This document shows positions 7,759-14,470 of a DNA stretch of 64,000 nucleotides, piece by piece. Within the stretch, counting starts at the first letter, position 1. The number at the start of each line of letters is the position of its first letter. The notes under the pieces are model-generated. The model was not told the DNA's origin. It made no database searches and saw only the letters and a list, made by a program, of their open reading frames with translations. The position numbers and the translations under genes are program-made. This stretch comes from Acanthamoeba lenticulata (lineage: Eukaryota > Discosea > Longamoebia > Acanthamoebidae). The stretch covers positions 1 through 64,000 of the forward strand of contig NAVB01000126.1 in assembly GCA_002179805.1 (NCBI GenBank), read 5' to 3'.

Positions 7759-10045
7759 ATGAGCGAAGGAGGCAAGATCAACGTTTCTATTAAGAGCTCT
7801 CACGGCGAGAAGCTGGTGGTGGAGGTGGACCCCACTGCCACGGTGTTGGAATTCAAGCAGATTTTGCAGGAGAAGACCAACATCCCACCAGAGCAGCAAA
7901 GATTGATCTTCGGCGGACACGTGCTCAAAGATGCTAGAACTGTGGAAAGTTATGGTGCGTTTTCCAAGATCTCTGATGAGACCTTGCAGGTTATTCACCA
8001 ACGGCTGTGGTGTTTGTTCGCTTGCTGCCACGTGGGAACAGCTATCAAGGATGGCTTTACCGTTCACCTTGTTCGAGGAGCGAGCAACAACATCGCGCAG
8101 CAAGCTGCCCCGCGGCCTGCACCTGCCGCGGCGCCTGCCGCGGGTGGTGCGGCGGCGTCCACAAACCCTTTCGCCGGCCTCGGCGGTCTTGGTGGTGGGC
8201 TGGGCGGCCTCGGTGGTCTTGGCGGAGGGGCTGACCTGCAGCAGATGTACTCGCAAATGATGCAGAACCCACAAATGGTTCAGCAGATGATGAACAACCC
8301 GATGGTCCAACAGATGATGAACAATCCCGAGCTGCTGCGTACTATGATGATGAGCAACCCTCAAATCCGCCAGATCATCGAGAGCAACCCTGAGGTCGGC
8401 CACATCCTGAACGATCCCAACACTCTTCGCCAGATCATGCAGGCGCAGTCCAACCCAGAGATCATGCGCGAGCTTCAGAGGACCACCGACCGAGCAATGA
8501 GCAACATCGAGGCCCACCCTGAGGGCTTTAACGCTCTTCGTCGGCTCTACACCACCATTCAGGAACCCCTCTACGAAGCCACCCAAGCGCAGACGCAGCA
8601 GCAAGCCGGCTCTACCAACCCCTTCGCCAGCCTCCTCGGCGGCGCCACCGAGCAGCCTACCACCACACCCAACTCTGCTCCTCTTCCCAACCCTTGGGCT
8701 CCTGGTACAGCTCGTCTCTCACCTTTTGTTCTCTCATCCCCTCTGTAGATCGTCTTGCTTAGCGTACCTATGTTGAATGCAGGCGGTGCTGCTCGTCCCG
8801 CTGCTGCTCCTGCCGCTGCGGCGCCGACCGCTGCCGCAGGACAGAATCCGTTCGCAAGTACGTTGTACAACGACTTGATAGCTTTCAAACAGCTCGCCAA
8901 CGGCTCACGTGTGTCCTGCATGTAGGCCTAGCGGGTGGCTTGGGCGGCCTGGGTGGTGGAGGCATGGGCGGTCTTGGCGCCATGGGCATGACCCCTGATC
9001 AAATGAGCACCATCATGCAGAACCCTATGGTTCAACAAATGATGCAACAGATCTTCTCCAACCCCGAGACCGTTCAACAGGTACCTGCTCGCTACTTCTG
9101 CTCGTCCTCGTTGCCTTTGTTACGCCTCTGACTGACTAGAGTCTGCTATTGTGTTGACCAGATGATGAGCTCGAATCCGATGGTGCAACAGATGCTGCAA
9201 ACCAACCCACAGATGCGTGAGATGCTTCAGAACCCCGAGTTCCTTCGGCGGTTCGCCGATCCTCAGACTCTGCAGGCCGTGATGCAAATGCAACAGGCCA
9301 TGTCGCAGCTTCAGAGCTCCTTTGGCGGCAGGTGCGTGTGCACGTCGTTTGCCCTCTCGACCTTTCTTGTTGAGGGATCCTTGGTCTCATGACAAGTTGC
9401 TTCATACAGTGCTGCTGGTGGCCTTGGAGGCTTCGGTTCCTTTGCTCCCGGCGCGTTCGGATTCCCACCTGCTCCTGGCGCTGGGGCCACTGCTGCCACT
9501 GCTGCCACTCCCTCCTCGACGACCACTCCCGCAACGCCCAGCTCGACGCCACCAACTGGTGCTGCGACAGCCACTGCCGGGTACGTTTGCATGTCTCTCT
9601 CCTTCCTATGCAACGTTGTTGCGGCGGCTTACACCCTCGAACATCATCCAGAGGCGCCGCGACTCCAACTGCGGCCACAGGCGGCGACCAGGCGGCGCTC
9701 AACCCGATGATGCAAATGCTGCAGCAGATGATGGGCGCTGGTGCCGGAGCCGGCGCCGGTGGCTTTGGTGGGCTGGGCGGTCTGGGCGGTCTGGGCATGA
9801 TGTCCCCACCGGTCACGAGTACGTAGTGCCGTCTTTTCTCCTCCTGGCGGCGAAAGCTTGCTCACGCGGGCGTCTTGTCTGTTTGTTTGTTTTTGAAATC
9901 AGACCCGCAAGAGGCCTACAGAGAGCAGCTGCAGCAGCTGAGGGATATGGGCTTCATCAACACGGAAGCCAACATTGCAGCCCTCCAGGCGACTGGCGGC
10001 AACGTCAACGCGGCCGTGGAGCGCCTGCTCAACCAGCTTGGTTAG
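7759..10045 (+). CDS. UBQLN: Ubiquilin / Dsk2-type UBL-STI1-UBA shuttle protein
   Basis: Carries ubiquitinated or misfolded clients to the proteasome. Exons 7759-7954, 8042-8704, 8783-8857, 8926-9080, 9162-9331, 9410-9580, 9652-9818, 9903-10045 give 579 aa in frame. UBL at residues about 5-78 ([31 protein letters not shown]), a Gly/Leu linker, then two STI1-like blocks rich in Met-Gln-Asn-Pro ([31 protein letters not shown], later [18 protein letters not shown]), low-complexity Gly/Ala/Thr, and a C-terminal UBA ([21 protein letters not shown]). All hallmarks of ubiquilin are present, with four Asn-Pro-rich STI1 units. The start codon sits in GGTCATGAG following a stop-rich region. An AATAAA-like ATAAAAT follows the stop at about 10110. 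Confidence 0.96.
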
Positions 10046-10156: not shown

Positions 10157-13100
10157 TCAGCTGGGCGTGTTGTAGTGCGCTTGGGCAAAGATGTGCTCAA
10201 AGGGCGCTTGCGGCCGGGCCTCGACCATCATGCCGGCGCCCCGCACGACATCGAACGAGCGCTCCTCTTCCGGATGATGGAAGAAGCAGCACCCGTGGTT
10301 GAGCGAGAGGCAAGAAAGCTCGCGCTTGAAGCGGGTGTCCCAGCCCTTGGACGCCGACCCACCACCGGTGATGACGACGTTGTGGCGCAGTTCATTGAGG
10401 TCGACGCGATTCAGCTCGGGTCCGTTCTTGTGCCGGTCGAGGTCTCGCAGCAGCTCAAACATCAGGGCGGCGGCCGAAGGTGGATTCTCGCAGCCCTTCT
10501 TCATTTCGAGTTTCACGAGTCGGGGCAGCAGCTTGCCCTCGTAGACCGGCGAGATGGAGAACACTTCGAAGCCGACGTCGACCACGATGCCCGTCTTCTT
10601 ACCGTACGTCGCCAGAACCAGCACGCTCGAGTCCTGCCGGATCCATCTGATGCGTCAGCCGCACGTCGCGCAGCTCTACAAGAACGACAACAAGAGGCAC
10701 TTGCCTCAGCACAGAGCACAACGGCCCGTCGCGAGGCTTGCATGACCCGCGCCACCGATTTCCAGTCCCCGATCTGCCATGAGGGCGGAATGGCGAAGAC
10801 GAACGGTACGGCCTGCGTGGACACGTCCAGGTCGCACTCTTTCAACATCGCTTGGATCATGTCATAAAACTTGGTGAGGCCAGCCGGCACGGGTCTTCCT
10901 GTGGGTGGGATGGGGGGGGGGGTGGTCAACTTTAAGGACCAAGCCAAGGAGCTGAGCAGTCTGCGACGAGTGACGCTCACTCATGCGGTATGCGAGCCGC
11001 ACCGCCAGCCACCAGGCATTGCACTCGGCTCGGGTTTCGTTCGATGGCTTCGTCACCGTAGTAATAGCGATCCGGGGCGCGGTAGTGCGACATGCGTGAC
11101 GCTGCACACGTAGCGGAGGACATCACAACGGACCCGAGCTAAGCGATCGGCATCGACCACAGCGTGTACGGTCTTTGCTGATTAGGGGGCGTACGTCTGA
11201 CGTTGATGAAGACCGAACGAGTGGAGGTCTGCCTGTAGACGCCCCGCCGAGAAGTGGTGACCAGGATTTTGACCGCGCGGCTGCCGATGTCGACTGCGGC
11301 GACGAACGGGTACGTGCTGCGCTCGAAGCTTCACCAAGAGCGCGTGCACAACGAGCTCGTCAGCAGGCGCACCCGCATCGGCTGGTGCACAAGCTTGCGG
11401 GACGTGGGCGTGTGCGCACCTGAGGCGGGCCTTCCAGCACCCGTACCAGTCCTCGATCTCGGCGTTGGGCGTTGGGAGCTGGAACGCGCTGTCGAGGTCT
11501 TTGGCGGCAGGCCACTTGGCCTGATAAAACCCCTTCCACAGCTTGCCGTCCTGGGCCAGGTCATACCACAACTGGGATCGGCCATTTTGTGGCTTAATGA
11601 TCTTGACCGTGTATGTGTGGCCATCACCTCAACAAAAGGCTGCGGGGACGGACCTTGGACACCAGTTGCAGGCGGCCAATCTGGACGGGCGAAAGGTAGC
11701 TGAAGATGAGCTGGTAGAGCTCGTAGGGGAGCTCCATCTCGGCCAGGCGAGCCTTGTCCTCCGCTGCAGGCATACCATCGTCGTGCAATTGAAGATCAAC
11801 TCTTGTCTTCGCGACTACCGTGGGGGCGTGGACGTACCAAGGGAGCGCTGCTCGTTGCGCTGGAGCTGGATGGCCTGCAGGTACTTCTCCACGAAGCGCT
11901 TGTGGTCGCCCTCATCGGCTGCGTCATCCGACTTGGTGTAGACCTTGATCAACTGCACATCACCGCGATCGTCTATCAGACGTGAAAGCATGGCATGTAC
12001 AAAGGGCCCAACAACCAACCTTGCGATAGGCCGACTTGGCAAGGTAGTCGCCTGTGCCCACCATCGCGCCCGTGTCCACCCGTTGGAACATCATCTGCGC
12101 CCAAGTCGAACCATCAGTCCACGCTGGGCTACACGAGAGACGAGTAGAGGGATGAAGGTCATGCCTCGGTTCGCAGGATGTACTTGTTCCCGTCCTCTAC
12201 GGGCTGTCCCTCGTGGTAGGTGTCGTGGTTGAAGAGCAGCGCGGTGCCCGTCTGTGGGCGCACCTGCCACAGCAACTCGCCCGTGCCTGAGGAACCAAGA
12301 CGACATGAGGCCTCTCATGGTCTGTTGTGTGCAATTTTGATCGCGACTGTTCCAGAGGAGGCTCTACCTTCGGAGCGAAAGATGGTGTTCCCGCCCGTGA
12401 ACGAGTCGTTGAGGTAGATGACCACCGTGTAGATGGAGCTCTCGTCTAGTCGAGGCACCCAAGGCCCGTCCACGTGAGCCCTGCATGTAGTGTGCGTGCG
12501 TGTCGATGAGGTTCGGGAGTAGCACTACGTGGTGATGCACTTGGCTGCTGCGACTTAATCCGTACGCAAAGTGTTGATGGGGCTTGTAGCGAACCATCTT
12601 TATGCACTCATTGAGTCGGTAGGGCCGCCACGTCCCCGCATTGCCGAAGCCTGTTGCGAGTAGGGAACACGCTTCACACGTAAGCCATAGCCTGAAATCG
12701 ATTGTAGAAAGTAAAAGAAGCACGAAGTAGAGGCCTAACGTGATGGCGAGGAGTACCAATGGGGCGCACGCGGAGGACATCGTCGACTTTGAGACCAGGC
12801 TTGATACGGTTCCAGAGCTTGTTGGCCAACGGCTCGTCCATGAGCAGCAGACGGTCCCCGCTCCGGTATTCATAATCAAACAGTTGGTCGAGGCCCTCCC
12901 AGCCCCCGCCATGGAGCTTTTCCTCTGCCGCGGTGCCCTCGACCACCCGTAGGAGCCGTGCGCATTCAAGCGGCGTGAGCACGTCCTGCAGGAGGAAGCA
13001 CCGGCCATGGCCCTGCAGGTCCACGTCCTGCCTCGGGGGCTGGCGTGCCTGTTCCGGTTGCTGTTGTTGTTGTTTTCGCCCTGGTTTTTTCGATTTGTGC

Positions 13101-13246
13101 TTCTTCTTTCGGCTGGCGGTCTCATCGTCAAACACCTTGTGCAGGGGCAGGGGCGGCACGAATGGGCTCGCTGGAACAGAGGGTGCTCGAACCATTTCCT
13201 GCACTTGTGCTCCCGCCAAAGGGCCTGCCTGTACGTCCGGCTCCAT
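10157..13246 (-). CDS. Composite protein: 2-oxoglutarate/Fe(II) oxygenase + F-box + actin-like domain
   Basis: Twelve exons (13246-12757, 12650-12566, 12480-12368, 12286-12165, 12094-12020, 11952-11838, 11763-11654, 11571-11420, 11328-11195, 11101-11003, 10898-10742, 10646-10157) total 2142 nt, 713 aa. Residues 1-75 are low complexity (Lys-rich, poly-Gln). Residues about 75-300 are a prolyl-hydroxylase-like oxygenase: iron ligands H194 and D196 (AAHVDGPW), IYLNDSFTGGNTIFR, distal H254 (NHDTYHEG) and 2OG-binding KYILRT. Residues 344-390 are an F-box (ELPYELYQLIFSYLSP, LVSKLWYDL). From 427 an actin-fold segment runs to the end: VAAVDIGSRAVKIL, YYYGDEAIERN, YGKKTGIVVDVGFE, SPVYEGKLLP, VVITGGGSASKGW. 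At about 285 aa it is shorter than actin (375). Introns at 12095-12164 and 10647-10741 read as GC-AG. The family knowledge is standard; the single-gene fusion is my splice inference. Confidence 0.72.
10911..10922. repeat. Poly-G run
   Basis: Twelve consecutive G on the plus strand inside an intron (10899-11002) of the oxygenase/F-box/actin-like gene, i.e. a C-rich polypyrimidine tract before the acceptor on the coding strand. A similar run of G at about 34517-34527 lies in an intron of the SET-domain gene. Both are probably polypyrimidine tracts. Confidence 0.6.
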
Positions 13247-13421: not shown

Positions 13422-14470
13422 ATGGAAGGGCTGGCTGTGTGCAGGCCTGCCAAAGATGACGACACGCTGCCGCCTGAGATGTGGCTCCAAGTGCTGTCTT
13501 GGCTCTCTCCGCTGGAAGTCCTCACCACGGCAGCCTTGGTGAGCCGCGATTGGTTTCAGCTTTCGCGTGAGGAACTACTCTGGTACTTGATTTGCATCCG
13601 TAAAGGCCGCTTGGCCACTGGGTCGTCCTTGAAGCCCGAGAGCTGGCGTTTGTTCTATTTTGGTACTTGTCTCCTTTGTCCTCCTTAGCTTGGCTGGCCA
13701 TGACACACGGGTCGGACACGCAGCGCCACAGAACATGCTCAGCAACGCGAGCGCTGAAGAGGAGTGGACCGGATGGACGTTTATTGGCGGCGGCGACGGC
13801 TGGGCAATCGAAGAGCTCGACCCCGACACGGCCACGCGCTTGGGCTGCCATCACAACTTCGTCTCCTCCTATATTGTAGAGCTCCACCCTCCACTCTGGC
13901 ATCGCTTTCTGCTCGCTCTGCTGCCCTCCCGCAAGCTCTAAAGGAAACGCTCCCCGCCCTTGTAGTGGTGCCTCAAGGAACAGACCGTCACGCTGACTGC
14001 TCACGGCCTGAGCGAGGCCTTCCTTGATTCATCGCCACCCATCCGAGTCTCTGAGTGGTTCTGTGCTCGAACCGACTGCGGCAGCACCTACCAGCTCACC
14101 GTGCCCTCTACTCCACTTGCCCACCGTACGGTGAACAATACGCTTATCCTAGGGTTGGGGGGGGGCAGGCAACGCTGCAAGATGCAGACCACGCCGTGCT
14201 GGCGACATGGACCACCGGTAAGAAGGAGGCGCAGACCATTTGGACGCAGGAGGAGCACGTCTTTCGTGATTATCCCGCCGGGGTCAGGTAGATACCAACC
14301 TAGACATGACGTGTTTCTGTTCCATCCCTTTCACACTTTGAGCTGATGACATCCCTTGGCGGCCAAGATCGCTGAAAATTGAGGCCAGGGGCAAGGACAA
14401 CAAGTTCTGGGCGGGCCACTACGGCGCCAAGATGACGGGTGCCCTGGCATCCATCGCCTGGGACAAGTGA
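13422..14470 (+). CDS. F-box protein with FBA (sugar-binding type) domain, FBXO2/FBXO6/FBXO44-like
   Basis: Predicted SCF substrate receptor of the Fbs class that recognises N-glycosylated, misfolded glycoproteins. Exons 13422-13662, 13724-13875, 13966-14100, 14169-14287, 14368-14470 give 249 aa in frame. F-box at residues about 17-60 (LPPEMWLQVLSWLSPLEV, LVSRDWFQLS). The FBA jelly-roll follows: NMLSNASAEEEWTGW, GGDGWAIEEL, FVSSYIWCLKEQTV, SEWFCARTDCGSTYQL, FRDYPAGVR, KFWAGHYGAKM. In human FBXO2 the glycan pocket includes a Tyr-Trp-Lys in this last segment; here it reads Phe-Trp-Ala, so the Trp is kept. Length matches the mammalian proteins. It is head-to-head with another F-box gene. Ligand specificity is inference from the family. 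Confidence 0.9.

Follow-up and report, generated by a model that had tools for sequence, protein, structure and literature searches.

Oxygen sensing through HIF and VHL is divided between two proteins, with one enzyme that hydroxylates and a separate ligase that reads the mark. One precedent for a 2-oxoglutarate (2OG)/Fe(II) oxygenase and an F-box in the same chain is provided by KDM2A and KDM2B (FBXL11 and FBXL10), in which the oxygenase, a JmjC demethylase accompanied by CXXC, PHD and LRR domains, lies N-terminal of the F-box; to our knowledge, neither carries an actin-like domain. The other, JcdI (Fbxo13) of Dictyostelium, combines an F-box with a JmjC dioxygenase, binds Skp1 and has a Km for O2 of ~22%. 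According to the accessible part of its report, such JmjD6-like F-box dioxygenases are widespread in protists and absent from metazoa, and JcdI carries its JmjC enzyme behind a near-N-terminal F-box and has no actin-like part (PMC9485057). Here we describe a predicted gene of Acanthamoeba lenticulata on the minus strand of a 64,000-nucleotide stretch (hereafter the window; positions 1 to 64,000 of contig NAVB01000126.1, assembly GCA_002179805.1), whose product joins, in this order, a PF13640-type oxygenase, an F-box and a reduced actin-like domain. As in KDM2A and KDM2B, the enzyme precedes the F-box. Unlike JcdI, the protein does not combine a JmjC domain with an N-terminal F-box, it ends in an actin-like part and its family occurs in sponges. 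In contrast to the two proteins of HIF/VHL, a single chain unites oxygenase, ligase adaptor and reduced actin. The gene is read as follows.

10157..13246, minus strand: whole gene, 12 exons, 721 amino acids; 2OG oxygenase, helical linker, F-box and actin-like domain (gene model; Pfam on the first model)
12757..13246, minus strand: exon 1, low-complexity N-terminus (residues 1-71), then the beginning of the 2OG oxygenase domain (gene model)
12566..12650, minus strand: exon 2, 2OG domain (gene model)
12368..12480, minus strand: exon 3, 2OG domain including H194 and D196 of the iron site (HVDGPW) (gene model, alignment)
12165..12286, minus strand: exon 4, 2OG domain including H254 (third iron ligand) and R268 (gene model, alignment)
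12095..12164, no strand assigned: intron 4, GC-AG; GT-AG at the same position in the C45 paralog (gene model, C45 comparison)
12020..12094, minus strand: exon 5, end of the 2OG domain into the helical linker (gene model)
11838..11952, minus strand: exon 6, conserved linker (LYxKS..GD..F...YL.AI.LQ...QRS), helical in the model of relative P0010 (alignment, structure model)
11654..11763, minus strand: exon 7, first part of the F-box (Pfam, gene model)
11420..11571, minus strand: exon 8, second part of the F-box and conserved DWYG motif ahead of the actin-like domain (Pfam, alignment)
11195..11328, minus strand: exon 9, actin-like domain with phosphate-1-type motif (VDIGS) (alignment to actin)
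11003..11101, minus strand: exon 10, actin-like domain; 3' boundary from a phase-1 intron common to C45 (C45 comparison)
10705..10898, minus strand: exon 11, actin-like domain (gene model)
10634..10704, no strand assigned: intron 11, GC-AG here and in C45 (gene model, C45 comparison)
10157..10633, minus strand: exon 12, actin-like domain with phosphate-2-type (VVDVGFEV) and adenosine-type (ITGGGS) motifs, most of subdomain 4 missing (alignment to actin)

The spliced model bears out a first-pass annotation of the window in that twelve minus-strand exons join in one frame. The length given there, 713 amino acids, is revised to 721, with intron 10 set by the phase-1 intron of a paralog on contig C45. 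This intron is re-placed to 11002-10899 because a good acceptor lies there behind a pyrimidine tract and because the C45 intron matches in phase and place. A first model of 727 amino acids, with another intron 10, differs from the final one only around this intron, and domain coordinates through the F-box are identical in both. Pfam on the window protein, the first search for relatives, tblastn and the search for actin-like loci, ligand counts, substitution-rate ratios and the tree used the first model, at least in part, the intron comparison and the alignment to actin the final one.

Gene structure and relatives indicate that the fusion is encoded by a single gene. Among the best candidates scored in the 48.5-Mb assembly, the actin-like part is present at four loci, on the window contig (C113) and on C45, C779 and C1325, and on the latter three tblastn with the whole protein recovers an oxygenase, an F-box and an actin-like segment, ordered as in the window gene. 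The C45 paralog reads cleanly as 11 exons and 741 amino acids, exceeds the cut-off for all three Pfam families and is identical to the window protein at 401 of 705 positions. Position and phase are common to the two genes for 9 of 11 introns (C45 has 10), including the introns within the F-box and between the F-box and the actin-like part. Together with the three Pfam families and the recurrence of the same order in sponges, this confirms the earlier view of a fusion in one protein. With 95.6% identity across 3,646 columns of their alignment, C779 and C1325 may represent one locus present twice in the assembly.

The oxygenase domain matches 2OG-FeII_Oxy_3 (PF13640) at residues 181-267 (43.3 bits against a cut-off of 27, E 8e-11). 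Its HxD...H iron triad (H194, D196 and H254, at the positions annotated before) is intact, as is R268, which we take to be the Arg that usually contacts 2OG, and the protein belongs on these residues to the 2OG-Fe(II) oxygenase superfamily. Among the aligned sequences, HxD is conserved in 28 of 28, the third His in 27 of 28 and the Arg in 26 of 28, an inactive-looking local paralog standing outside the count. AlphaFold models of relatives show the prolyl 4-hydroxylase (P4H)-type fold, a double-stranded β-helix. The oxygenase profile is closest to prolyl 4-hydroxylases such as 3itq and 5hv0, presumably bacterial, 2jig, presumably algal, and the transmembrane P4H 6tp5. The likeness to this group (3itq/5hv0, algal 2jig/3gze and transmembrane 6tp5) thus extends to both sequence and fold; unlike the fusion family, no prolyl 4-hydroxylase known to us carries an F-box or an actin-like part.

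The F-box-like family (PF12937) is matched at residues 344-387 (48 bits against a cut-off of 24.3, E 1e-12), close to the 344-390 estimated in the first-pass annotation. Its best solved relative in a single-sequence search is FBXL5, a weak match (E 2e-4). The F-box and the DWYG linker that follows it are well conserved between the amoeba and sponges.

An actin-fold segment had also been proposed C-terminal of the F-box, and both Pfam and the predicted folds of relatives agree with it. The Actin family is matched above cut-off by a divergent sequence, with the best stretch at residues 517-608 (40.9 bits against 27, E 1e-10), and AlphaFold models of two relatives show an actin fold. The model of P0001 is poor past residue 600. 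The best solved relative in a single-sequence search is Arp2, again weakly (E 2e-3). Alignment to actin shows that the phosphate-1 motif is kept, Asp and Gly included. The four subdomains of actin are incompletely represented, as only 27 residues align with the 89 of actin 181-269 that form subdomain 4. Of 11 rows aligned to actin, one is gapped at His161 and the other 10, including the window protein and C45, all have it replaced; Gln137 is kept in 4 of 10 (P0007, P0010, P0011 and P0012), and the window protein has Ser at both positions. Because the hydrolysis residue His161 is replaced, ATP turnover by the actin-like part appears unlikely. With its phosphate-1 motif kept, this part may bind nucleotide, as suggested earlier. 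The domain thus resembles actin and actin-related proteins in fold and in its phosphate-1-type motif, but differs from them in the loss of most of subdomain 4, the replacement of His161 and its location behind an F-box.

Rough ratios of non-synonymous to synonymous substitution rates (dN/dS) between the window gene and C45 are 0.13 for the oxygenase, 0.22 for the linker, 0.22 for the F-box and 0.48 for the actin-like part, with dS of 0.8-1.3; residues 1-71, for which dS is saturated, have no ratio.

Three protein searches yielded at least 27 relatives (P0001-P0027), a lower bound since the first two scored only the candidates sharing most words; four sponge relatives of the first search (P0002, P0003, P0004 and P0009) did not recur in the second. 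The named relatives belong to three sponges, Ephydatia muelleri (three entries), Halichondria panicea and Oopsacas minuta, whose proteins align over all three parts, and P0018 is a EukProt transcript. The oxygenase is above the Pfam cut-off in 24 of 27 relatives, F-box-like in 18 and Actin in 5, with Actin below cut-off at E≤0.01 in 8 more. All three families reach E≤0.01 in 12 of 27 and exceed the cut-off in 3 (P0001, P0004 and P0011). In most relatives it is alignment to clear members, not the Actin model, that identifies the C-terminus, and some show no recognisable C-terminus of this kind; shorter or divergent relatives, for example P0013, P0017, P0021 and P0027, show a partial architecture. 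P0012 combines the oxygenase with a much more typical actin (E 8e-74) and a sub-threshold F-box, and P0026 has oxygenase and Actin above cut-off with no F-box match. An actin origin of the C-terminus is supported by these two. Two relatives carry further domains. In P0001, a FYVE zinc finger (residues 609-647, E 2e-10) lies where actin has its subdomain 4; this homologue may accordingly be targeted to the endosome. In P0019, a WWE domain precedes the oxygenase (residues 200-265, E 1e-9), a further possible tie to ubiquitin or ADP-ribose signalling.

A tree of the 2OG-to-F-box part was built from 26 rows, comprising the window protein, C45 and 24 of the 27 relatives (P0009, P0026 and P0027, which are disrupted, partial or lacking the rest, were left out). 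The window protein, C45 and P0001 cluster together (99/100) in a tree whose bootstrap had not settled and which has several long branches; 11 of 23 inner branches are unresolved, so that vertical descent and transfer are indistinguishable. A scan of viral contigs for a giant-virus origin gave 24 pattern stretches, none confirmed, a weak negative as near records may be omitted. NCBIfam gives no match above its curated cut-off for P0001, P0010 and P0012. The domain order, for which the first-pass annotation knew of no described protein, is not unique to this gene, since it recurs in three sponges and other relatives; no description of the three-domain combination was found in the literature searched, which took in few subscription papers. 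The fusion is a member of a conserved, apparently undescribed protein family, with known precedent for its F-box/2OG pairing in JcdI and KDM2.

The analysis shows a single gene with this domain order, conserved catalytic residues, folds predicted for two relatives, and an actin-like part that lacks the catalytic His and much of subdomain 4; Skp1 binding, enzyme activity, cell location, the role of the actin-like part and the coupling of the two reactions are inferred. The reading favoured here, tentatively, is that the fusion is an oxygen-dependent substrate receptor of a Skp1–cullin–F-box (SCF) ligase, in which the pseudo-actin recruits and the oxygenase hydroxylates the client or the receptor itself. 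The F-box would dock on Skp1. Substrate-binding modules usually lie after the F-box, and the actin-like domain, which follows it here, would be a non-hydrolysing pseudo-actin that recruits a client or partner. The N-terminal P4H-type oxygenase would hydroxylate the client or the receptor when O2, Fe(II) and 2-oxoglutarate allow, and coupling of both reactions would render ubiquitylation oxygen-dependent.

Several observations weigh against such a receptor. Of the 27 relatives, 9 have an F-box that is below cut-off or unfound and 14 give no Actin match at E≤0.01, so that some members may do without one or more of the three functions. With a dN/dS of 0.48, compared with 0.13 in the oxygenase, the actin-like part is the most rapidly evolving of the four for which a ratio was obtained. 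In the C1325/C779 paralog (L010, L011), Gln replaces the first iron His and the Asp of the FNHD motif is changed to Gly; its oxygenase is probably inactive, with the three-part order retained. Finally, the O2 phenotype of JcdI required its catalytic site and not its F-box, in the accessible part of the report (PMC9485057), and this separability calls for caution, as coupling of hydroxylation to ubiquitylation is not to be assumed in the fusion family.

The last point and the missing F-boxes also suit another reading, in which the F-box only sets the abundance of its own protein through SCF turnover, a role proposed for JcdI, with an unrelated substrate of the oxygenase being recruited by the actin-like part. 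The same source adds that during development Skp1-bound JcdI increases and the level of JcdI decreases (PMC9485057). However, the conservation of the F-box and DWYG linker from amoeba to sponges, and an F-box dN/dS as low as expected if the F-box matters, make this reading rather unlikely.

More doubtful is that the actin-like part binds actin-binding proteins through its kept subdomain 1/3 side, the protein being an oxygen-gated regulator of the actin cytoskeleton. The actin fold of two relatives, the retained phosphate-1 residues beside a subdomain 4 cut to 27 aligned residues, and the far more typical actin of P0012 are in keeping with such a role, whereas the fast evolution of this part speaks against it.

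That the oxygenase hydroxylates Skp1 in cis in the manner of PhyA, as first proposed for this gene, is improbable. The F-box would bring Skp1 close, and the Skp1 proteins of the genome keep a suitable proline: the best-matching one (contig C76) has the context NDFTPEEEE, which we take to be of the type targeted by Dictyostelium PhyA, and a second (C544/C1522) has NDLTPEDEA. PhyA and PHD2 share with the fusion family 2OG oxygenase chemistry and an SCF link via Skp1. However, the oxygenase profile is nearest other P4Hs, and none of the 17 chains it matches at E≤10 is a PHD2 or PhyA chain, although distant kinship is still possible. Moreover, the genome contains a separate PhyA-like open reading frame on C1726 and C17. 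Among solved structures, the C1726 frame best matches 6t8m (E 2.6e-18), titled 'Prolyl 4-hydroxylase subunit alpha' and presumably the Dictyostelium PhyA structure, followed by HIF prolyl hydroxylases. Because of this match, a PhyA-type enzyme appears to exist apart from the fusion gene, and hydroxylation of Skp1 in cis is accordingly given low weight. The PhyA site of Dictyostelium Skp1 is Pro143; in human Skp1 the proline is replaced by Glu147, and Glu is found in many complex animals, as far as the accessible text states (PMC7864055), so that the target may be missing in sponges too. Acanthamoeba is listed, in the accessible part of another source, among protists with genes resembling the Skp1-modification pathway (PMC3515798).

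It is extremely improbable that two or three adjacent genes were wrongly merged: although the fusion rests on gene structure and relatives rather than transcripts, this artefact is ruled out by the introns shared with C45, domain joints included, and by the three domains at all four actin-like loci. Sponge proteins repeat the domain order, as do P0001, P0011 and P0012, and the latter three (811, 976 and 786 amino acids) nearly fill contigs of 2579, 3050 and 2388 bases, which leaves little space for separate genes.

The oxygen-dependent SCF receptor favoured above could, in a stronger and quite unlikely form, be a self-contained oxygen-gated ligase receptor, whose enzyme would mark for degradation a client held by the pseudo-actin and whose F-box, in the same chain, would hand this client to the SCF. 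With actin-binding proteins as its clients, such a receptor would sense oxygen directly on behalf of the cytoskeleton; a vertically inherited family would predate the divergence of animals and amoebae and have been retained in sponges. The occurrence of the family in sponges and in Acanthamoeba, a genus grown in the laboratory, makes clients searchable by proximity labelling at varied oxygen, and these would reveal whether proteins of the oxygenase/F-box type work in cis, a question shared with JcdI. The family may represent an undescribed route by which oxygen is connected to protein breakdown and perhaps also to the cytoskeleton.

Elsewhere in the assembly, 2OG oxygenase segments related to the family's enzyme lie on contigs C10 (L031/L012) and C236 (L033). 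On C10, tblastn gives no convincing F-box or actin-like segment within 5.5 kb, and C236, covered by the actin-like search only, has no actin-like match. Several loci are present as near-identical pairs on separate contigs (C453/C1673, C17/C1726 and C779/C1325), so that the assembly may in part contain both haplotypes. The actin open reading frame of the genome agrees with actin-1 of 4efh, an Acanthamoeba actin by its title, at all 375 aligned residues.

In the window, the fusion gene is flanked by a divergent neighbour on the plus strand (13422-13941), another F-box protein (PF12937, 40 bits), the two start codons, as read here, lying 175 bp apart. Further along this strand, past the F-box neighbour, a piece weakly resembles the F-box-associated (FBA) family, with an E of 6e-4 that is below cut-off. 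On the other side, a convergent plus-strand neighbour (~9132-10045) is ubiquilin-like, pairing a piece that resembles UBQLN1 with a UBA domain at the C-terminus. With the F-box and ubiquilin-like neighbours, three adjacent genes are all ubiquitin-related.
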